Source: Propionibacteriaceae bacterium
GTDB taxonomy: Bacteria; Actinomycetota; Actinomycetes; Propionibacteriales; Propionibacteriaceae
Assembly: GCA_031265725.1 (NCBI GenBank)
Contig: JAISCH010000088.1
Span: 1 to 10,455, forward strand
Direction of reading: 5' to 3'
Length of the DNA: 10,455 nucleotides
The notes under the pieces were generated by a model. It saw only the letters and a program-made list of their open reading frames with translations. It searched no databases and was not told the DNA's origin. Shown in pieces: positions 2,129-10,455 of this stretch; the stretch's first letter is position 1; every line of letters begins with the position of its first letter. The position numbers and the translations under genes are program-made.

Positions 2129-2626
2129 ATGATCGAGCCGATCCGGACAACAGCCGCGCATACGCTGAGCTTCGAGGAATTCGTGTTGAACAACTCGATA
2201 GCCCTGCAAGACTTCGCGTTCCTGGTGATCGGCAACCGGGAAGACGCACTCGACGCTGTTCAAGACGCGCTGATCGGGGCGTTCAAGCATTGGCACTCGA
2301 TGAGCCACAACCCTGGCGCATACGTGCGGAGGTCGATCGTCAACGCCAATATCACCGCCTGGCGCAAACGCCGCAAAGAGACGCCGACGGCTGATTTCAC
2401 CTGGTCGCAGAGCCAGGCCGACGCTCCCGGCGTGGAAACGATGTGGGTGCGGCGAATCTGCGGCCAGCTTCCACGGAAACAAAGGGCAGCCATCGTGATG
2501 CGCTGCTACGAGGACATGTCCTTCGCCGACATCGGGACCGCACTGGGCTGCTCAGCGGCCTCCGCCCGGTCGCTGTATCAGCGCGGAGTGACAAAACTGC
2601 GCACAATCATGAACGGAGAGAAATGA
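2129..2626 (+). CDS. ECF RNA polymerase sigma factor, SigE family
   Basis: This encodes a 165-residue extracytoplasmic-function sigma factor that would direct RNA polymerase to a small stress or envelope regulon. Region 2 covers about residues 15-80 (FEEFVLNNSIALQDF, then DALDAVQDALIGAFKHW and YVRRSIVN). Region 4 covers about 112-160 (LPRKQRAAIVMRCYEDMSF, then the helix-turn-helix GCSAASARSLYQRG). The overall pattern is that of the actinobacterial SigE-type family. A longer form beginning at GTG 2096 adds eleven residues, but those codons coincide with the element conserved at 3802-3834, and every difference between the copies there is non-synonymous, so I prefer ATG 2129. Its TGA overlaps the ATG of the next gene (ATGA), implying translational coupling to its probable anti-sigma factor. 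Confidence 0.85.
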   Translation: MIEPIRTTAAHTLSFEEFVLNNSIALQDFAFLVIGNREDALDAVQDALIGAFKHWHSMSHNPGAYVRRSIVNANITAWRKRRKETPTADFTWSQSQADAPGVETMWVRRICGQLPRKQRAAIVMRCYEDMSFADIGTALGCSAASARSLYQRGVTKLRTIMNGEK

Positions 2627-3636
2627 ACACTGATTTTGAGGACCATGAGCTGAACGAAGCGCTCAAAGCACACTTCAGCGCGGCGGTGGAAGAACAGCCC
2701 GCCCAGCCGATCTTCGCTTCCACTATCAAAGCTGGCCAGCGGAAAATGGGTCGACGGCAGTGGGTGGTCGGCGGCGCGACCGTGCTGGCCGCCGGCATTG
2801 TGACCACCTTGCTGACGATGACGTTCGTCCCGTCCAGCGCGCTTGTCGGCGTGCCAGAGCCGTTGGCCCCGGCTCCGAGTCCAAGCGAGGAAGAGGATCA
2901 GACCCGAACTGTGGTTATCGGCCAGTCAGGACAACCGGCAGATGGCGAGTATTACACCGACCCCGAAACGGGGGAACAGTATTACTACATCGTGGACCCT
3001 GAGACCGGGGAAATCATCAAAGTAATTGTGCCTGATCCAGATTCACCACAAGTGGCTCGCCAGGACCCCGAGACCGGGCAAATCACTCTGATACCGGCTG
3101 TACCAGGCTCAAACCTGCCCGCCCCACCCAAGGACGCGCCCGAGATCGGCGCGTGGACGCCAGGACCGGATTGGAAGACCTACAACTTGAAGACATTCGG
3201 GATCAGTGTGCAACTGCCGAAAAATATGGTGGCCTTCCTGGACAAAGAATTCGACAACGGCTACCGGCTGGACACTAAGGCGACCCGGGCCGGGAAAGAC
3301 ATGAAAGAAATCCTGGTCTGGCCAGAATCATTGGCTGCTGGAAATGGCTCTGAGCCGCCTTACGACCTGGGCAAAGTGCCCGGACTGATGGATGCCAAGG
3401 GCCGCCAGGTTCATATCGGCTATTTCGACAATTCGAATTCAGAAGAGGACTGGGCGGAATTCCTGCTGATGGTGCCCGACGACAGCCAACCAGGCAGTTA
3501 CGACGCCCTGCTCGACTTCGGCAAAGGCAAGGTCTACTTCGGCAGCGACGACAACTGGATGCCGCTCACCAAGAAGGACCAGAAAGACCGCGAACTGATA
3601 GTCGCCATCCTGGCCAGCGTAAAAGTAATCGACTAG
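2623..3636 (+). CDS. Single-pass membrane protein, probable anti-sigma factor/sensor (copy 1)
   Basis: This 337-residue protein has a polar N-terminus (1-46), one membrane segment (about 47-69, WVVGGATVLAAGIVTTLL), a Pro/Ser/Glu-rich linker (about 75-95), a stretch with three DPETG motifs (113-117, 125-129, 148-152) and a C-terminal domain from about 184 to the end (WKTYNLKTFGISVQLPKN onward). It contains no cysteine. The start ATG overlaps the sigma stop codon. Overlap with an ECF sigma gene and a cytoplasm-membrane-exterior layout argue for an anti-sigma factor holding the sigma factor through its N-terminus and sensing with its exterior domain; I recognise no named anti-sigma domain, so this role is inferred. 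A longer upstream reading frame exists but lies inside the sigma gene. A repeat element follows six bases after the stop. Confidence 0.75.
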   Translation: MNTDFEDHELNEALKAHFSAAVEEQPAQPIFASTIKAGQRKMGRRQWVVGGATVLAAGIVTTLLTMTFVPSSALVGVPEPLAPAPSPSEEEDQTRTVVIGQSGQPADGEYYTDPETGEQYYYIVDPETGEIIKVIVPDPDSPQVARQDPETGQITLIPAVPGSNLPAPPKDAPEIGAWTPGPDWKTYNLKTFGISVQLPKNMVAFLDKEFDNGYRLDTKATRAGKDMKEILVWPESLAAGNGSEPPYDLGKVPGLMDAKGRQVHIGYFDNSNSEEDWAEFLLMVPDDSQPGSYDALLDFGKGKVYFGSDDNWMPLTKKDQKDRELIVAILASVKVID

Positions 3637-3640
3637 TTAA

Positions 3641-3763
3641 GCCCCAAAAAGTGTCCTCCCTACGCCTACGCTCCGGTCCGGTACTTTTTGGGGACCCCGA
3701 CATATTTACATTGAAGGGGGACGTCCCCCTTCAACCCCCGCGCTCACTGCGTTCGCCACAACG
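3641..3763 (-). repeat. Dispersed hairpin repeat, copy A (inverted relative to the other copies)
   Basis: Read on the minus strand, this follows the same order as the copies at 7064-7217 and 9290-9561: a GTGGCGAAC-type GC-rich block, GCGGGGGTT, a perfect hairpin, GGGGTCCCC, AAAAAGTACCGGACCGGAGCG and AGGGAGGACACTTTTTGGGGC. It contains a perfect 24-bp palindrome at 3711-3734 (half-site TTGAAGGGGGAC) and an 11-base inverted repeat CCCCAAAAAGT / ACTTTTTGGGG at 3642-3652 and 3683-3693. It separates the two membrane-protein genes and could act as a transcription or mRNA-stability barrier between them. No coding frame in it is credible. Confidence 0.88.
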
Positions 3764-3801
3764 TTTCTTTCTTCCGCACTGATCCATGCGTAGGATGAGT
3801 C

Positions 3802-3858
3802 ATGAACTACTTCGCAGGCGGGCGAGATAGACCCCTAGCGTCAGGGGGAGAAGAATGA
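3802..3858 (+). pseudogene. Possible remnant of a deleted sigma gene (18-codon frame)
   Basis: An 18-codon frame, MNYFAGGRDRPLASGGEE, starts where GTG 2096 lies in the intact copy and ends with TGA overlapping the next ATG (ATGA), exactly as the sigma gene does. Its first eleven codons align with 2096-2128, and its last codons (GGA GAA GAA TGA) resemble the sigma gene's end (GGA GAG AAA TGA). This fits a duplicated sigma/anti-sigma operon that lost almost all of the sigma gene. It may have no function as a peptide: the differences from the intact copy all change the amino acid, which points to conservation as promoter DNA. Confidence 0.4.
3803..3831 (+). promoter_or_regulatory. Duplicate of the sigma-operon promoter
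   Basis: TGAAC (3803-3807), 18 bases, then GATAGA (3826-3831), repeating the arrangement at 2097-2125. The bases between are largely conserved (CTTCGCAG is shared), and similarity runs from about 3781 to 3834. This suggests the second membrane-protein gene belongs to the regulon of the neighbouring sigma factor. Transcription from here would leave a leader of about 20 bases carrying the ribosome binding site GGGGGAG (3844-3850) ahead of ATG 3855. Confidence 0.5.
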
Positions 3859-4868
3859 ACAGCGATTTTTCCGAGAACGAACTGGACGAGACCCTCAAAG
3901 TGCAGTTCAGCGCGGCGGTGGACGGGCAGCCCGTTCAGCCGATCCTCGCGGACGCAGTCAAAGTCAGCCAGCGTAAATCGAGTCGGCAGAAGTGGGTGAT
4001 CGGTGGCGCGACCGTGCTGGTCGCTGGCATTGTGACCACCTTGCTGACGATGACATTAGTCCCATCCAGCGCGCCGCAGCCGATGGCCCCGGCTCCGTCC
4101 GCTAGCGGGGATGAGGGCCAGACTGAGACCGAGACAGTATTTGTCGGCTCTCTCGGCCATTGCGCGGAGCCGAACTCCGGCGAGTATTACACCGATCCTG
4201 AAACGGGGGCACATTATTTCTGCGTCATGGACCCCGCCACCGGGGAAACCACCATCTTTATAGTGCCTGATCACGATTCATCACAAGTGGCTCGCTTCGA
4301 CTACGAGACCGGACAATTCATCCTGTTACCGGTTGCACCAGGCTCAAACCTGCCCGCCCCACCCGAGGACGCGCCCAAGATCGGTGCGACGACACCGGAT
4401 TCGAGTTGGAAGACCTACGACTTGTTGCCCTTCGGGATCAGTGTGCAACTGCCCAAGAACATGAAGGCCTTCAAGGACACGGACTTCTACCGGCTGGACA
4501 CCAAGGCGATCCGGTCCGATGAGGATATGCGCGGGATTATGGTCTTGTCGGAGTTTCTGGCCGTCGAGAATGGCCCCGTTCCGCCATACGATCTGGGCAG
4601 CGTGCCTGGGCTGAAAGACGCCAAGGGCCGACAGGTTCATATCGGCTATTTCGACAATTCGGATTCGACAGAAGACTGGGCGGAATTCATGCTGATAGTG
4701 CCCGACGAAAGCCAACCAGGCGGCTACGACGCCGTGCTCAGTTTCGGCAAAAGCTATGTCTACTTCGGCGGCAACGACCTCTGGGCACCGCTAACCAAGG
4801 ATGGCAAAAAAGACCGCGCCCTTATCGTCGCCATCCTGGCCAGCGTGCAAGTTTCAACCACAAAGTGA
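3855..4868 (+). CDS. Single-pass membrane protein, paralogue of the probable anti-sigma factor (copy 2)
   Basis: This protein is 337 residues, exactly as long as copy 1, and about two-thirds identical by eye. It shows the same plan: a polar N-terminus (1-46), a membrane segment (about 47-69), a Pro/Ser/acidic linker, a repeat-like stretch, and a C-terminal domain from about 185. Only the first DPETG is intact (114-118); the others read DPATG (126-130) and DYETG (149-153). It has two cysteines, Cys103 and Cys123, flanking the first motif in the predicted exterior part, where copy 1 has none; they could form a disulfide. GGGGGAG lies five bases upstream of the ATG. It has no sigma gene of its own, so it may compete for the neighbouring one. 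It is convergent with the MetE-like gene; the 83-bp gap shows no clear terminator. Confidence 0.75.
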   Translation: MNSDFSENELDETLKVQFSAAVDGQPVQPILADAVKVSQRKSSRQKWVIGGATVLVAGIVTTLLTMTLVPSSAPQPMAPAPSASGDEGQTETETVFVGSLGHCAEPNSGEYYTDPETGAHYFCVMDPATGETTIFIVPDHDSSQVARFDYETGQFILLPVAPGSNLPAPPEDAPKIGATTPDSSWKTYDLLPFGISVQLPKNMKAFKDTDFYRLDTKAIRSDEDMRGIMVLSEFLAVENGPVPPYDLGSVPGLKDAKGRQVHIGYFDNSDSTEDWAEFMLIVPDESQPGGYDAVLSFGKSYVYFGGNDLWAPLTKDGKKDRALIVAILASVQVSTTK

Positions 4869-4951
4869 GCTAGCACGGTTGTCCGGCTCAGTCGATGCCG
4901 GGCGATGGCTCCAGGCAGATGAGTGCGGGACGTGGCACGTACCGTCTGAGA

Positions 4952-5944
4952 TCACTCAGCCAATTCAGCCGAGACTTGGGACGCCGCTCGGCCAAGCCTG
5001 CGGAACACCTCTTTGACCGACTGCGTGGGGAAACCTGCCAGTCCGCAGGCGGGAGTGAGGACTAGTCGTCCGGCCAAATCGTTGACAGCGATACGTTCGA
5101 CAACGCCGAGCACGCGCTGACGGAGTTGATCGACGCTGGGCAGGACGCTGGGATCGTTGGTGGGCAAACAACCCAGCCACAATTGCCTGCCTGCCTCGGC
5201 GGTTTGGGCCAATGCCTCGTAGTCGCCAGCGGAGAATTGGTCTTGATCTAGGCTCACTCCGTCGAAACCGGCCGGGCCGGTCATCGCGGCGACCGGAAGA
5301 CCGGGCGCGCAACAGTGGACGACGGCTTGCGCGCCCTCGTCATGTGCCACCTCGGTGAGCAGCGCCAGGGCGTCGCTGGCTTCGGGCAGGTCGATGGCCC
5401 GGTGCCGGAAAAAGCCGCCCGGAGTGGCGATAGCGCCAGCAAGCACCGCTGGCAACGACGGCTCGTCGATTTGCAGGACCAACTGCGCGCCGGGCAGCCG
5501 ACGTTTGACTTCGACCAGCAAATCCCGCACCCCAGCGGCCAATGCCTGCCCCAGGTCGCGCCTGGCCCCCGGATCGGCAAGCACTCGGACGGTGTGCTGG
5601 GCCATCGTGCTCGCGGCCAGCGTCCACGGCCCGGCGACCTGCGTCTTGCAGCGGCCCGAGAAGCCAGCGGCGGTTTCCTCAAGCTGGTCGAGGTCGTCGC
5701 GCAGGGTGACCCGCGCCCGTCTCAAGTCGATCCCAGCGGTGGGAGCGAGCCGCCACTGCCCCGCCTCGTACTGGGCGGGCAGCCCGGACGCCACACCTAA
5801 TCCGCGCCCGATCATCCCCGCCCAAGGCCCACGGGAGGGCAGTTCGGGCAGATAGGGAAATTCCAACTCGAAGGCCGTCCGCAATGCCTGGCCGAAATCA
5901 GTGCCCGGCAGCGATCCCAATCCGGTGTGCTCAATCATGGTCAC
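4952..5944 (-). CDS. Short MetE-like protein (cobalamin-independent methionine synthase C-terminal domain)
   Basis: This 330-residue protein corresponds to the catalytic C-terminal barrel of MetE, the zinc enzyme that transfers a methyl group to homocysteine. It lacks the N-terminal half, as does the mycobacterial protein Rv3015c. Visible features are [11 protein letters not shown] (100-110), the homocysteine-binding-type motif QIDEP (158-162), zinc ligands in VVHCCAPG (His210, Cys212) and LTPACGLA (Cys300). The position of the usual zinc-ligand glutamate appears to read LD (about 232-233). The substrate of these short proteins is uncertain, so methionine synthesis should not be assumed. GTG 5944 overlaps the mnmA TGA (GTGA), with GGAGG four bases upstream; ATG 5938, two codons later, is an equally good start. 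It is probably cotranscribed with mnmA. Confidence 0.88.
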
Positions 5945-7032
5945 TGACCCTCCTCGGGCCCGAATGTGGCCGCTATCGTGGCTGAGCCGACCACCCGATC
6001 TCGGTCGTAACAGACTACCGACTGTCCCGGCGCGATACCGAAGGCGGGTTGGGCCAAGCTGACTCGCAATTCGCCAGCGCGTAATTCGAATTCAGCCGCT
6101 GCCGGTACCGAATGCGCCCGCCATTGCGCCAGTCCATGCCAAGGTCCGGTGACCTCGCCCTCAGTCCAAGTGGGTCGGATCCCAGTCATGCCGACGACCG
6201 CGAGCCGCTGCTGCGGGCCGACCACTACTTCGTTCCTGGCAACATCGACCTTGAGCACGTAGCGCGGGCGTCCATCGGCGGCGGGAACGCTCAACCGCAG
6301 GCCGTGGCGCTGGCCGACGGTGAATTGGTACGCCCCGGAATGCGCTCCGACCACCTCGCCACGCTCGTCCACGATGTCTCCCGGCCGGGTGCCGAAACGC
6401 TCGCGCAGATAGCCGGAAGTGTCCCCACTAGGGATGAAGCAGATGTCATGCGAATCGGGCTTCTTGGCCAGATACAGCCCGCGCGCGGCGGCCTCGGCGC
6501 GGACCTCGGCCTTGGCGGTGACTGGCCCGAGCGGGAACAACGAGTGGGCAAGCTGTTGCTGATTCAGCACCCCGAGCACGTACGACTGGTCCTTGGCCGG
6601 CTCGGCTGAACGCAACAGCCGCACCCCGGCAGCAGTCCGCTGCAATACCGCGTAGTGGCCGGTCGCCACCGCGTCGAAGCCGAGCGCCCGTCCGCGTTCC
6701 AAGACAGCCGCGAATTTGATCCGCTCATTGCAACGCAAGCAGGGATTGGGGGTATGGCCGAGCGCGTACTCGGCCAGGAAGTCGTCGACCACATCCGCTT
6801 TGAACTCATCGGCCAAATCCCAGACATAGAACGGGATGCCGAGCACGTCAGCAGCCCGGCGAGCGTCGTGCGAGTCCTCCAACGAGCAGCACCCCCTGGC
6901 CCCGCTGCGGTAAGTCTCCGGATTCTTCGACAGCGCCAGATGCACCCCGGTCACCTCATGCCCGTCATCCACCAACCGGGCAGCGGCAACCGCAGAATCC
7001 ACTCCGCCAGACAGCGCCGCCAAGATTTTCAC
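5941..7032 (-). CDS. mnmA: tRNA-specific 2-thiouridylase MnmA
   Basis: MnmA adenylates and thiolates uridine 34 of tRNA-Lys, -Glu and -Gln using persulfide sulfur, in the cytoplasm. The 363-residue protein has the PP-loop SGGVDS (8-13), [13 protein letters not shown] with the first catalytic cysteine (Cys98), TGHYA (125-129), and [11 protein letters not shown] with the second catalytic cysteine (Cys198). It is then full-length through the C-terminal barrel. I chose GTG 7032 because the protein then begins [13 protein letters not shown], as in relatives; a longer frame to 7113 reads into the repeat and is not credible. AAGGTAG lies ten bases upstream. Only about 30 bp separate the start from the repeat, so if the gene was once cotranscribed with the cysteine desulfurase, it now needs a promoter within or near the repeat. 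Confidence 0.96.
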
Positions 7033-7063
7033 AACCAGAAGACTACCTTGGTCCAGTTCTAAC

Positions 7064-7217
7064 GCAGCGTAGGGAGGACACTTTGGCGAGCAAAGCGAGC
7101 GCGGGGGTTTCAAGGGGGTCGTCCCCCTTGAATGTCAATTGTTGGGATCCCCGAAAAGTACCGGACCGGAGCGTAGCGAAGGGAGGACACTTTTTGGGGC
7201 AAGGAGGACACTGGCGA
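7064..7217 (+). repeat. Dispersed hairpin repeat, copy B plus the start of a broken unit
   Basis: One full unit runs GGACACTTTGGCGAGC, GCGCGGGGG, a ten-base-arm hairpin (TTCAAGGGGG at 7109-7118, CCCCCTTGAA at 7123-7132, loop TCGT), GGGATCCCC, AAAAGTACCGGACCGGAGCG and GGGAGGACACTTTTTGGGGC. The end pair CCCCGAAAAGT (7149-7159) / ACTTTTTGGGG (7189-7199) has one mismatch. A second unit begins at about 7203 (GGAGGACACTGGCGA) and stops at about 7217, where AT-rich DNA begins. The repeat lies immediately upstream of mnmA. Confidence 0.9.
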
Positions 7218-7300
7218 AATTGTATTCACTCACCTTGATTATTCAGGAACTGTTCCTTACTTACGATTTCAAATATGGAGCGGACACATCAAAACAGCCA

Positions 7301-8512
7301 CTATTTTTTAAGGGGATTTTCTGTTGCTATTTTACAGAAAACTTCAATAAACTTCTCCGATTCTTCCAGATTCGGAGAATGGGCAGAATTAGAAAATGCA
7401 ATAAACTCTTTATAGGGAGCCTCTAAAATATCCAGATATTTTTCTGCAAGAATCCTTGAAACCTGATAATCATAGTCTCCTTGAACGATATAAAATGGGA
7501 TTTCAAACTTCGCTGATGACGTAAAAAGATCATCTTCCAGTATAATAGGGAATAGTTGTACCATAGAAAAATCAGCACCAAGAAACCAGTTTATTTTTTC
7601 GCTTAACGTATATCCCTTGAATCTGAATAAAGCCCTAAAAACCATCCCATTAAAAGTCATCCCTTCTGGAAGCCCTTGATGCAAATGCCCAACCCCGTAT
7701 TTTATCATGGCATCGGTTCTGCCCTTCACAAGATACTCCAAAGTTGGAAAATCATCAGCGTATGGGTCATATTTTTTAAGTCTTTCAATAACATCTTTAT
7801 CGCCGATGTCTTTTGCATGGCTTAACATATAATCATAGGCTAAACGTTCTGATTCCGTTTGATTTGTCACTTGACCAATGCCAATATATGCAAGATAATT
7901 TTCAGGATATTTTTCTATGGTTTTAACGCCAAGATAGGAACCCCAGGAATGCCCCAAAAGATATATTTTTTCCTGATTGAATCGCGATTTGAGGTATTCT
8001 GTAACCTCATGCGTATCTTCCACCATTTGCGCTACTGTCATTGTCGCGGAATCTGCTGATTTAGAGTATGTCATTCCCGCACCGCGCTGATCCCAGTAAC
8101 AAACTGTAAAATATTTCTCAAGACGCTCGTTCGTTTTTTCTAGCTGTTCCAGATAGGAAATAAATTGAAGCATTGGCGTACCGGGTCCGCCGTGCAGGTA
8201 CAGTATTACCGGATTTTGGATATTCTCTCCGCGAATAAACATACCCTGCTTGATTCCATTAATATCAACCCATATTTTCTCGGAAACAGAGCCTTGAATA
8301 ACGTTTCCCTGCTCATTTTTCAGCGGCTCAAGCTTACCGGGGCTGTTTATCAAGATAATCACCACAACCGCAAAAATAACGCCAACTGCTGAAAACAGGG
8401 CTATTAACATCTTCTTTTTCCTCCTCTTATAGGACGCGTTTCGCACTTTGCTCTTTCCATTTTCACAGCCTAATAGTCCTTGCAGTTTCTTATTACGCAT
8501 TTTATTATCCAC
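7301..8512 (-). CDS. Membrane-anchored alpha/beta hydrolase, proline iminopeptidase-like
   Basis: The fold's signatures are all present (numbered from GTG 8512): oxyanion-hole motif HGGPG (107-111), WDQRGAG (140-146), nucleophile elbow GHSWGS with Ser189, a likely catalytic aspartate in GDYDYQ (Asp348) and histidine in SAHSPNLE (His378). HGGPG plus DQRG is typical of proline iminopeptidase-type (S33) enzymes, but the true substrate is unknown. A basic stretch (KRRKKK, 29-34) and a hydrophobic segment (about 35-56) indicate a membrane anchor or uncleaved signal with the enzyme outside. Start is ambiguous: GTG 8512 gives 403 residues, seven bases after the tetR stop; ATG 8410 gives 369 residues, has AGGAGG nine bases upstream, and begins just before the membrane segment. 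Codon use is that of a low-GC donor, probably a Bacillota species. Confidence 0.85.
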   Translation of the reverse strand: MDNKMRNKKLQGLLGCENGKSKVRNASYKRRKKKMLIALFSAVGVIFAVVVIILINSPGKLEPLKNEQGNVIQGSVSEKIWVDINGIKQGMFIRGENIQNPVILYLHGGPGTPMLQFISYLEQLEKTNERLEKYFTVCYWDQRGAGMTYSKSADSATMTVAQMVEDTHEVTEYLKSRFNQEKIYLLGHSWGSYLGVKTIEKYPENYLAYIGIGQVTNQTESERLAYDYMLSHAKDIGDKDVIERLKKYDPYADDFPTLEYLVKGRTDAMIKYGVGHLHQGLPEGMTFNGMVFRALFRFKGYTLSEKINWFLGADFSMVQLFPIILEDDLFTSSAKFEIPFYIVQGDYDYQVSRILAEKYLDILEAPYKEFIAFSNSAHSPNLEESEKFIEVFCKIATENPLKK

Positions 8513-8518
8513 ACTCTC

Positions 8519-9178
8519 TTATTCCTCCAAGAAGCCAATAACAGCCGTTGCTAATGTCTGAAACATTTCTGGAATATCCGTTGCCGATTCGGAATCGCGG
8601 CCATTGCCCTCTGCCGCATTGAATACCACGTTCTGTGCGATTCCATCTATAAAAATACTCACGAATTGGATGACAGAGTGGACAGGGATTTGAGATCTAA
8701 AAACACCTTTATCCATATTGCTCATGGCATATTCCACGATTTTGTTTTGCGCGTATTCAAGACTCTGCTTAAATTTCAATTTAGGAAATATTGCTGTCCT
8801 TTTTTTAAAATCAGAGGAATATAAAACCAGAAGTTCAAAAAATGTTTCGCCGACAACAGATTTCAACAACTCTGCGATATACTCCCCCATCGCTATGAAA
8901 CACGCCTCAAGAATACGTATTTCTTCTTGCTCTGAGTTTAATAGTGCGTCAATCTTTTGTTCCAACGAACTAGCGGTCGTATGCTTATTGATAAAATCCA
9001 CGTAGACTTCATCTAAATTCGCATAATACCGATAAATCACCCCCTGGCTGAACCCAGCCTTCTTAATAATGTCACGCATGGATATTAAATACAGAGGCTT
9101 TTCTTTCAACATTTCCCCCGTACAGTTGAGAATAAAATCTCTTTTGCCCACAAAGTATTCGTCCTTAACTTTAGGCAT
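8519..9178 (-). CDS. TetR/AcrR-family transcriptional regulator
   Basis: This 219-residue protein has an N-terminal helix-turn-helix at about residues 31-57 (ISMRDIIKKAGFSQGVIYRYY), including the family's G-x-I/L-Y-x-Y/H-Y/F core, and a divergent helical C-terminal ligand and dimerisation domain; its length is normal for the family. The start ATG 9178 has GAGGGG about six bases upstream. It is the first gene of an operon with the hydrolase, with six bases between them. Two closely similar palindromes at 9190-9220 and 9246-9274 frame its promoter, so it very probably represses itself and the hydrolase until a ligand binds. The ligand is unknown; it could be a substrate or product of the hydrolase. 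It is AT-rich, like the rest of the cassette. Confidence 0.93.
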   Translation of the reverse strand: MPKVKDEYFVGKRDFILNCTGEMLKEKPLYLISMRDIIKKAGFSQGVIYRYYANLDEVYVDFINKHTTASSLEQKIDALLNSEQEEIRILEACFIAMGEYIAELLKSVVGETFFELLVLYSSDFKKRTAIFPKLKFKQSLEYAQNKIVEYAMSNMDKGVFRSQIPVHSVIQFVSIFIDGIAQNVVFNAAEGNGRDSESATDIPEMFQTLATAVIGFLEE

Positions 9179-9189
9179 ATAAGTCCCCT

Positions 9190-9220
9190 CAATATAAATG
9201 ACACTATGTCATTTATATTG
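9190..9220. promoter_or_regulatory. Operator O1, perfect palindrome over the tetR -10 box
   Basis: Perfect 14-base arms, CAATATAAATGACA (9190-9203) and TGTCATTTATATTG (9207-9220), surround the centre CTA. It overlaps the -10 box and covers the expected transcription start, so a bound TetR dimer would block polymerase. Its left arm ends next to the ribosome binding site. Confidence 0.88.
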
Positions 9221-9245
9221 TAAACCCAACACCGGGGAGTGTCAA
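9217..9245 (-). promoter_or_regulatory. Promoter of the tetR-hydrolase operon
   Basis: On the minus strand TTGACA (9245-9240), exactly 17 bases, then TACAAT (9222-9217). This is a near-consensus housekeeping (sigma-A/sigma-70) promoter of the low-GC Gram-positive type, consistent with the cassette's foreign origin. It lies between operators O1 and O2, with start expected near 9210. Confidence 0.88.
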
Positions 9246-9274
9246 GACATAAATGACATAATGTCATCTATGTC
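9246..9274. promoter_or_regulatory. Operator O2, near-perfect palindrome abutting the -35 box
   Basis: Arms GACATAAATGACA (9246-9258) and TGTCATCTATGTC (9262-9274) match with one mismatch around the centre TAA. The core ATAAATGACA-NNN-TGTCAT is shared with O1. The two centres are 55 bp apart, about five helical turns, so the two sites may be bound on the same DNA face. Confidence 0.82.
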
Positions 9275-9289
9275 TATGCCTGCTTTATT

Positions 9290-9561
9290 CCTAAAAAGTA
9301 CCGGACCAAAGCGAAGCGGAGGGAGGACACTTTGTGGCGAGCGAAGCGAGCGCGGGGGTTTCAAGGGGATCGTCCCCCTTCAGTGTTAAACGTTGGGGTC
9401 CCCAAAAAGTACCGCAGCGTAGCGAGGACACTTTGTGTGAGCGAAGCGAACGCGGGGGTTTCAAGGGGGTCGCCCCCCTTGAATGTCAAATGTAGGGGTC
9501 CCCAAAAAGTACCGGACCGAAGGGAGGACACTTTTTGGGGCAGGGAGGACACTTTATGGGG
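9290..9561 (+). repeat. Tandem array of the hairpin repeat (copies C and D, with partial ends)
   Basis: The array begins with the tail of a broken unit (CTAAAAAGTACCGGACCAAAG), followed by unit C (about 9325-9426) and unit D (about 9427-9540), then a truncated GGACACTTTATGGGGC. Unit D has a perfect ten-base-arm hairpin (TTCAAGGGGG at 9460-9469, CCCCCTTGAA at 9474-9483) and a perfect CCCCAAAAAGT / ACTTTTTGGGG pair (9500-9510, 9530-9540). Unit C has a degraded hairpin (around 9359-9382) and lacks part of the following spacer. The orientation is the same as copy B. Together with the operators and promoter, this accounts for the whole gap between tetR and the cysteine desulfurase. Reading frames crossing it are not credible. 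Confidence 0.9.
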
Positions 9562-10455
9562 CTGTACGGGCTGTACGAGCCTGATCCACTGCGGGCATGA
9601 GGGCATCGACCAGGGCGTCAATATCGGCTTCGCTGGTTTGCCAGCCGAAGGAGAAGCGCAGGCTGGCGCTCGCCTGGGCAACGGTGCGGCCCATCGCCAG
9701 CAGGACCGGACTGGGCCGGTGTACGCCAGCGGTGCAGGCCGAGCCGACCGAGCAACTGATCTGAGCCCGGTCGAGCAGGAGCAGCAGGTCGTCGGCGCGC
9801 AATCCGGCGAAGGTCAGGTTGACGATGGCCGGGCTGCACTCTCCCGAACAGTTGGCGGCGACATCCGGGATGGCTTGGCGGCTGTGGGAGATGAGCCGGT
9901 CATGGAGACGGCGCAACCTCTCAGACTCGGCGGCCAGCTCAGCCGTGGCCTGGCGAACGGCGGCGGCGAAACCCGCTGCCAGCGCCACCGGGACCGTGCC
10001 GGGACGACGTTTGGACTCCTGCTCGCCGCCGAAGCCATAGGGCCGGAAATCTAGCGAGCGGCGGACGACGAGCGCGCCTATCCCCACCGGTCCCCCGATC
10101 TTGTGCGCCGAGAGCGTCATCGCGTCCACGCCAACTCCGGCGAAGTCCAACCGGAGATGGCCGAGCGCCTGCACGGCGTCACTGTGGACCAGCGCCCGCT
10201 GCCGCCGGGCGAATTCCACCACTTCGGCGAGCGGCTGGACGACGCCGGTCTCCCCGTTCACCAATTGCACGCTGAGCAGTTGTGCCCCGGACTCCGACGG
10301 ATCAGTTGTCGGACCGCCGACTCCCGCTGGAAGGACCACCCTCCCGGTAATGTCCACCCGGAGCACTTCCACCTGGGCCAACCGGCCCTGGGCGTTCAGG
10401 ATCGATGGATGCTCCACCGCTGAGACCGCTATTCCGACCCCGCCCAAGCCACGCA
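9554..10455 (-). CDS. Cysteine desulfurase (NifS/IscS family), N-terminus beyond the window
   Basis: This PLP enzyme removes sulfur from cysteine as a persulfide for Fe-S clusters and tRNA thiolation. The window holds about 300 residues. Visible are VEHPSIL, NGETGVVQP (a substrate/PLP-binding asparagine region), HSDAVQALG with the PLP-contacting aspartate, SAHKIGGPVGIGAL with the Schiff-base lysine (codon 10100-10102), GTVPVALAAGFAAA, the active-site loop GSACTAG with the catalytic cysteine (codon 9734-9736), and LRFSFGWQTSEADID. The frame is open to the right edge, so the start lies outside. In actinobacteria this gene usually lies just upstream of mnmA, and a sulfur relay to MnmA is likely; here repeats and the cassette intervene. 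Its TAA stop lies inside a degenerate repeat end (GGACACTTTATGGGGC), so the repeat may have altered the last residues. Confidence 0.95.
   Translation of the reverse strand, partial: RGLGGVGIAVSAVEHPSILNAQGRLAQVEVLRVDITGRVVLPAGVGGPTTDPSESGAQLLSVQLVNGETGVVQPLAEVVEFARRQRALVHSDAVQALGHLRLDFAGVGVDAMTLSAHKIGGPVGIGALVVRRSLDFRPYGFGGEQESKRRPGTVPVALAAGFAAAVRQATAELAAESERLRRLHDRLISHSRQAIPDVAANCSGECSPAIVNLTFAGLRADDLLLLLDRAQISCSVGSACTAGVHRPSPVLLAMGRTVAQASASLRFSFGWQTSEADIDALVDALMPAVDQARTARTAP

Follow-up and report, generated by a model that had tools for sequence, protein, structure and literature searches.

A hairpin repeat between the genes of a Propionibacteriaceae bacterium shares its core with multi-copy families of five other phyla

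Small palindromic repeats are usually viewed as lineage-specific. What, then, is the short repeat that stands three times between the genes of one contig of a Propionibacteriaceae bacterium (GenBank assembly GCA_031265725.1, contig JAISCH010000088.1), and how far does it extend beyond this genome? The whole stretch of 10,455 nucleotides, called the window below, had been predicted from its letters to hold a high-copy family resembling repetitive extragenic palindromic (REP) sequences or miniature inverted-repeat transposable elements (MITEs). Beyond this original prediction, the repeat proves to be built from separable modules in mosaic arrangement, and the core of one of them, the A module, is common to multi-copy families of five other phyla. 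The A module forms a hairpin and is dispersed in many copies; in Treponema its stems vary with compensation while an asymmetric internal loop is kept.

All motifs quoted in the original prediction are present where it had placed them. The A module is a hairpin, AAAGTACC...loop...GGACACTTT with GGGG/CCCC arms, found in five copies in the window, and the B module is a second hairpin, GAGCGAAGCGAGCGCGGGGGTTTCAAGGGGGTCGTCCCCCTTGAA...GGGGTCCCC, found in four. Their layout is as follows.

3641-3698, minus strand: A module with intact arms, plus GGGGTCCCC (A core at 3648-3687)
3699-3757, minus strand: B module (GAACGCAGTGAGCGCGGGGGTTGAAGGGGGACGTCCCCCTTCAA...; B hairpin at 3714-3739)
7064-7087, plus strand: partial A module, 3′ half, GGGAGGACACTTT
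7088-7143, plus strand: B module (B hairpin at 7103-7129; AAGGGGG/CCCCCTT hairpin at 7112-7129)
7144-7200, plus strand: GGGATCCCC, then A module with intact arms (A core at 7155-7193)
7201-7213, plus strand: short 3′ fragment of A (AGGAGGACACT)
9290-9341, plus strand: A module with degenerate arms (A core at 9295-9333)
9339-9403, plus strand: B module and GGGGTCCCC (B hairpin at 9354-9380)
9400-9441, plus strand: A module in a 29-nt core form with apex GC-GTA-GC and degenerate arms (A core at 9406-9434)
9439-9503, plus strand: B module and GGGGTCCCC (B hairpin at 9454-9480)
9499-9541, plus strand: A module with intact arms (A core at 9506-9534)
9542-9562, plus strand: partial A module at the 3′ end of iscS

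The 11-base outer inverted repeat, CCCCAAAAAGT/ACTTTTTGGGG, which had been assigned to the unit in general, is intact in 3641-3694 and 9499-9541 and contains one G.T pair in 7149-7200, so that three A copies have intact arms; it is broken in 9290-9341 and 9400-9441, both of which fold poorly. Because the outer arms are broken in these two copies, the fixed order of elements claimed for every locus holds only roughly. All three loci lie between the genes found, as predicted, and one array reaches the 3′ end of iscS.

The draft genome to which the window belongs, as contig C126, is G000 (1,873,755 bases in 368 contigs, 59.7% complete). A blastn query with 9290-9561 finds 37 places in this genome, in line with a high-copy family, and the pattern AAAGTACCN{8,36}GGACACTTT for exact A cores has 29 matches (10 forward, 19 reverse), against none for the reversed pattern. 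The loci examined here consist of A+B tandems or of A by itself, with a third module (GAGAAGAACAAAACTCGGCT...) behind it in several cases. A is separable from B, since A without B occurs in G000 and in three other genomes, G021, G024 and G075. By genes predicted with a crude caller, 26 of the 30 distinct A cores in 36 own-genome loci are intergenic. Among 60 genomes, the own genome counted, blastn with the array gives matches in five, again with the own genome counted: G021 and G024 carry the A module, and in G011 and G032 the match is limited to a short piece of the B hairpin. The A pattern has no match in G011 and G032, two other genomes of the family; their B-like hairpin, GCAGGGGGACGACCCCCTTGCAACCCCCG, lies in L033, L037 and L041 of the former and L034 and L038 of the latter, in some cases seemingly after a stop codon. 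In G021, which also has a short A form (CCCCACAAAGTTCTTCGATACTTTGCGGGG), A adjoins repeats of the GTCATCCCGGAC type that by eye resemble published CGTC-tagged REPs (PMC3733652). The element of G075 (Propionibacteriaceae Gx481_bin45) is about 115 bp long in the 20 places examined, often flanked by CTAG tetranucleotides and in some places joined by additional tandem A units. At one locus of another member of the family (L167, Propionibacteriaceae TD116_bin66), a single A element lies between two direct copies that by eye resemble a tRNA 3′ end, an arrangement like that of an integration site.

Copies from Treponema reveal what is conserved in the A module because they were not selected by the core. 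Five Treponema-family genomes were searched by blastn with the L312 element and its flanks, giving 49-63 matches per genome, many of them diverged copies of the element, with 40 candidates of each genome scored. In Treponema the element measures about 123 bp and is palindromic around a conserved internal loop (NN-GSA / GA-NN-A). Its stem 1 takes clearly distinct forms, GCAAAAAAGTA/CACTTTTTTGC, CTGAAAATAAA/TTTATTTTCAG, CACAAATTAA/TTAATTTGTG, GCAAAAGCGAA/TTCGCTTTTGC and AAATTCCAA/TTGGAATTT, and the window core, AAAGTACC/GGACACTTT, is one of the Treponema stem versions. The loop runs from stem 1 through CC or GC (TC once) and G[C/G]A to stem 2, and back through GA, GG or GC (GA once) and an unpaired A to stem 1. 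G[C/G]A is altered in a few copies, and the C/G changes in the loop are coupled (44 C-G, 17 G-C and 1 U-A). Over 62 copies and 49 pairs, 93.3% of cells are paired, compared with 82.3 +/- 0.4 in shuffles; two-sided changes occur in 27 of the 49 pairs (shuffles 19.8) and in 333 cells (shuffles 109), and covariation is 0.326 against 0.137 for shuffled alignments and at most 0.065 for slid structures. RNAalifold gives a very similar fold of 42 pairs. When right arms were permuted among copies, 76 alphaproteobacterial cores had 536 Watson-Crick pairs against 364 +/- 11, and 80 propionibacterial cores had 466 against 430 +/- 5; these groups were assigned by record title, metagenome-assembled genomes (MAGs) titled 'proteobacterium' being placed with the alphaproteobacterial cores and L167 being omitted from the propionibacterial ones. 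A regular expression for a second internal loop fits 33 of 39 Treponema copies and 7 of 76 alphaproteobacterial ones, and because it fails in Alphaproteobacteria this loop is not claimed for all groups.

The core was followed across species with the pattern AAAGTACCGN{8,30}GAGGACACTTT, which requires neither the inner stem nor further outer pairs, over 84,980 species with one genome each. At least 102 stretches match, and the taxa represented are a minimum. The matches listed come mostly from Propionibacteriaceae and Alphaproteobacteria, several of them titled as animal-gut, and further from Clostridia (including Limadaptatus), Treponema putidum (complete genome), two Omnitrophota MAGs, a Saprospiraceae MAG, one Opitutales MAG contig and one Asticcacaulis. 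Among the 102 listed, 97 either extend the outer stem by at least five of eight more pairs or have five or more pairs in an inner stem, and 46 do both; two listed stretches, L142 and L171, are truncated by contig ends. L091, L095, L097, L170 and L171 reach neither threshold, and two of these, L091 (Flavobacteriaceae) and L097 (Mobilisporobacter), were dismissed as chance matches. Whole-genome counts with the pattern GTACCGN{8,34}GAGGACAC in 22 core-bearing genomes gave 50 cores in G075, 32 in G061, 22 in G074, 18 each in G063 and G068, 11 in T. putidum and one to five in each of the other 16, the reversed control giving none in 20 genomes and one in each of two. The core form AAAGTACCG/GAGGACACTTT is present in multi-copy families of six phyla. 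Its spread is patchy: with the seed counted, 11 of 80 genomes of the T. putidum family and 2 of 385 in the class of G061 carry it. Phages and plasmids had no blastn match to 9290-9561, nor did plasmids to an alphaproteobacterial array, and four stretches from a scan of IMG/VR, which are nearly a single sequence with unpaired arms, were rejected as chance.

In T. putidum (L122, about 7590-7630 and 1761-1801) rhs-like open frames contain the element in their 5′ part, and beside one such frame is a Flavo-1 hairpin (RF01705, 7795-7929). In L298 and L307 the 5′ half of the element is fused at the apex to another hairpin repeat (ACGGTAYAAAATGTAC...), and these joins suggest nested insertion or recombination at the apex.

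For a held-out test, 24 Treponema copies lacking the window core were made into a model, R1, which was run on 71 chosen sources. It recovered both Omnitrophota sources, all five from Saprospiraceae and six of eight alphaproteobacterial ones (L083 and L145 being missed), as well as one clostridial locus (L156); at the positions of the core the best E values range from 1.7e-6 to 0.03. Weaker matches reached further repeats of L092 (up to E 1.1), and one match in L156 lay off the element (E 1.2). None of 32 control loci, chosen around mnmA or genes for REP-associated tyrosine transposases (RAYTs), matched at E <= 10. The long palindromes of Spirochaetota, Omnitrophota, Bacteroidota, Pseudomonadota and one clostridium therefore form one family.

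Near-identical copies occupy unrelated flanks. Five Omnitrophota copies of 187 bp are 98.4-99.5% identical to one of them and differ in their flanks, and in Treponema the copies, about 123 bp long, are sharply bounded and lie in varied surroundings. Between G124 and G145, with eight exact-core Treponema copies in each, just one site is shared (flanks 96.5% alike over 344 nt), which speaks for mobility; the other flank matches there are 75-83% alike and resemble other repeats. What might move them was sought among several kinds of enzyme. The original prediction had pointed to a RAYT, and this link was not borne out: PF01797 was not found in the incomplete own genome, in G021 and G024 or in the six genomes with at least 10 copies (G061, G063, G067, G068, G074, which is G021, and G075). 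Y1_Tnp is present in 9 of the 22 core-bearing genomes and in 14 of 30 genomes of the genus. A reverse transcriptase or retron and an IS110 (bridge RNA) element were rejected as partners, PF00078 being present in only 4 and PF01548 in only 2 of 12 genomes tested. Open reading frames of the 102 listed loci, clustered and considered where a cluster occurred in at least three loci, include no obvious transposase or recurrent partner; the recurrent clusters are the read-through frame of the element and housekeeping-like or unrelated proteins, as judged by eye from the starts of the sequences. An insertion sequence or transposase that would explain the repeat, the other check proposed at the outset, was likewise not found in the searches made.

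Which strand is folded was considered from wobble pairs and apices, with the cores divided into class I and a mixed class II by GGGG within the first nine bases after the core, a split that misplaces a few copies. At positions 1-7 of the outer arms, 85 class I cores have 66 G.T and 2 A.C pairs on the plus strand, counts that are not independent because they are shared among relatives. Among class I apices, 51 of 76 are GC-GNA-GC or a 17-nt extension, NN-GNA-GC-GNA-GC-GNA-NN, and in the long apex the outer two pairs vary in step (CC/GG 29, AT/AT 3, CT/AG 2, CT/GG 1). As DNA, d(GCGNAGC) forms a very stable mini-hairpin. The wobble and apex data favour one folded strand, perhaps of DNA, or of RNA. 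No support was drawn from an energy test with DNA parameters, in which 170 of 184 cores favoured the plus strand, because all cores were selected with the same motif and the test is not independent. The distribution on replication strands in Treponema, taken from contig halves, is not convincing (62 against 45, for 107 matches among those listed).

Between iscS and mnmA the following features are present.

7214-9289, no strand assigned: foreign low-GC island, with repeat arrays in the same orientation on both sides
7301-8512, minus strand: gene for an alpha/beta hydrolase
8519-9178, minus strand: gene for a TetR regulator

The GC content of the island is 38.9% (7218-9285) against 62-69% around it. 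Around it, ligA, a gene with a Meth_synt_2 domain, mnmA and iscS follow in this order on one strand. A search of 30 genomes of the genus found mnmA in 29. Of the 28 relatives among these, 18 have a readable iscS and mnmA in order, nine loci without an iscS match and one anomalous locus being excluded. None of these 18 has the element between the two genes, which are separated by 36-156 nt in 13 and by 610-1350 nt in five, against about 2.5 kb in the own genome. The named relatives listed for the hydrolase and TetR proteins include Treponema, Lachnospiraceae, Oscillospiraceae, Breznakiella and Leadbettera. The island is of gut Firmicutes or spirochaete type, and contigs of the same size in both protein searches suggest that the pair travels together. 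Recombination between repeats would be the simplest route of entry and is probably how the island arrived. Upstream of the TetR gene are two similar palindromes, ATGACACTATGTCAT (9198-9212) and ATGACATAATGTCAT (9253-9267), perhaps its operator. Elsewhere in the window, a single repeat unit lies between tandem genes for a 337-amino-acid protein (2623-3636 and 3855-4868; 76-81% DNA identity in pieces), which has no Pfam match at E 0.001, and a gene for a sigma-70-family (ECF-like) factor (2096-2626) adjoins the pair.

Taken together, the repeats are probably copies of a non-autonomous mobile hairpin element of the kind represented by REP and enterobacterial repetitive intergenic consensus (ERIC) sequences. 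One strand, the plus strand of the window for 7064-9561, would fold as single-stranded DNA or possibly as RNA; an enzyme acting in trans would recognise the folded loop and then copy or move the element, and the B module and other hairpins may have been picked up on the way to give tandem mosaics. Several results weigh against this reading. No clean empty site or target-site duplication was established, and orthologous sites of L312 hold other sequence; by eye, no consistent target duplication is seen among the G075, Omnitrophota and Treponema copies inspected, and their ends are palindromic. The comparison of sites between G124 and G145 covered exact-core copies only. No mobilising enzyme was found among the candidates tested. 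At positions 1-7, the 93 class II cores have 30 G.T and 54 A.C pairs in a simple arm register, and RNA energies favour the plus strand in 38 of 81. Model R1 matched none of 20 propionibacterial sources, the window among them, and just one of four clostridial loci, so that the class of the window is tied to the long palindromes by the exact core, by which the genomes were also picked. Made through 20 exact core positions that fall at the same points of the structure, this link is strong but less direct. Finally, eight of the 30 own-genome A cores end 10-23 nt from the 3′ end of a gene, by distances from a crude gene caller, which would fit an RNA role in 3′ untranslated regions.

If the hairpin does work in transcripts, in 3′-end protection, as a terminator or as a site for an RNA-binding protein, its spread would be secondary. 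The retention of G.U pairs in the Treponema apex stem (in 55 and 60 of 62 copies) agrees with such a role as well, but the element is found in both orientations to genes, within 25 nt of a gene 3′ end the structured strand is antisense in eight cases and sense in two by the same crude calls, and the class I apices are mostly of the type stable in DNA; an RNA element is accordingly regarded as unlikely. It is quite improbable that the repeats are MITEs for which each lineage has a different, unrelated DDE transposon with distinct inverted ends, the core being shared cargo. Ends are indeed lineage-specific (CTTTTGAAA...TTTCAAAAG in Treponema, TTAAACCCGG...CCGGGTTAA in Omnitrophota and mostly AGTTCTAAA...TTTAGAACT in Saprospiraceae), and TTAA flanks both ends of four of five Omnitrophota copies. 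However, the outer stems of the alphaproteobacterium Lapin-021 vary and yet remain complementary (157 pairs in 17 copies against 110 +/- 8 permuted), unlike fixed terminal repeats, and the protein clusters shared by loci include no obvious transposase by eye. Movement as REPs by a RAYT (Y1) transposase would account for small intergenic palindromes, mosaics and positions near stop codons, as reported for REPs (PMC3733652), but it is already contradicted by the absence of PF01797 matches from the genomes listed above, unless the Y1 enzyme is too diverged for that model, and by the A module having no GTAG/CGTC foot as read in the window and G075 copies; it has very little probability. Many Treponema copies have GTTAG or GTAAG ahead of the 5′ foot, distinct from the REP tag. 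Equally hard to credit is that these are the attC sites of an integron whose cassette is the hydrolase-TetR pair. The logic of a folded strand and the two arrays in the same orientation around the island would suit it, whereas AAC/GTT boxes, read for at the ends of the element, are absent and the copies are dispersed, with no single array.

The island could also be an artefact, in which the window was misjoined at repeats and the low-GC part belongs to another organism. Misjoins at repeats are a familiar hazard of assembly, this is a draft metagenome assembly of many contigs, and GC shifts at the repeats. Against this, repeat copies separate the island from native genes on both sides, and the genes that flank it, mnmA and iscS, are neighbours in 13 of 18 readable relatives, which makes a misjoin distinctly unlikely; the repeat family itself is unaffected by this question. 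A bolder form of the mobile-element reading, that a single superfamily of selfish hairpins extends over at least six phyla, with a G-S-A / G-A loop of the folded strand read by one conserved and undiscovered enzyme, is offered tentatively and is on balance doubtful. If true, it would mean attC-like movement of DNA without integrons that can carry foreign genes between copies, as in the window. What is observed is one internal-loop motif, under strong compensatory constraint where measurable, in multi-copy families of distant phyla without the REP transposase. This makes what moves small palindromic repeats directly testable, and here the arrays enclose two genes gained by horizontal transfer.

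No element examined, in the window or elsewhere, matches an Rfam family at the gathering cut-off, and the original prediction had likewise recognised no described family. Two matches that overlap elements, to a plastid psbJ 3′UTR model (9357-9483, E 0.18) and to a miRNA model (L128, 2660-2726, E 0.28), are far below cut-off and were discounted, and no description of the element was found in the open-licence literature searched. It resembles REPs and bacterial interspersed mosaic elements (BIMEs) as short intergenic palindromes of high copy number, in mosaic arrays and in some cases near stop codons, and differs in having an A element with an asymmetric internal loop shared across phyla, with no RAYT found in the richest genomes and no GTAG/CGTC foot. 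CGTC-tagged REPs, including dRS3 of Neisseria, have no known dedicated transposase (PMC3733652, Di Nocera 2013); they differ from the A module in sequence and structure, and in G021 the repeats that look like them are its neighbours and not the element itself. Flavo-1 (RF01705), a dispersed hairpin too, is located in sense or antisense indistinctly in F. psychrophilum (PMC9723704). Its loops were read in the alignment as G-N-A/G-N-A, but the Rfam match in L122 (7795-7929) is a hairpin next to the element, which itself has no Flavo-1 match. Integron attC sites are recognised as a single folded strand and not as duplex sequence, as may be the case for the present element, which differs from them in lacking AAC/GTT end boxes and a cassette array and in being dispersed; attC sites of Treponema are described as 63-68 bp with AAC/GTT box ends (PMC3607928).

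ERIC sequences and Rickettsia palindromic elements are imperfect palindromes of 100-150 bp with internal loops. Compared by description (PMC3733652), they are like the present element in that some copies lie within open reading frames, here the rhs-like ones of T. putidum, and unlike it in that the present element spans phyla. The element, which fails both tested REP-RAYT features and yet seems to work like REP and ERIC sequences, is therefore placed beside them as a variant of its own.

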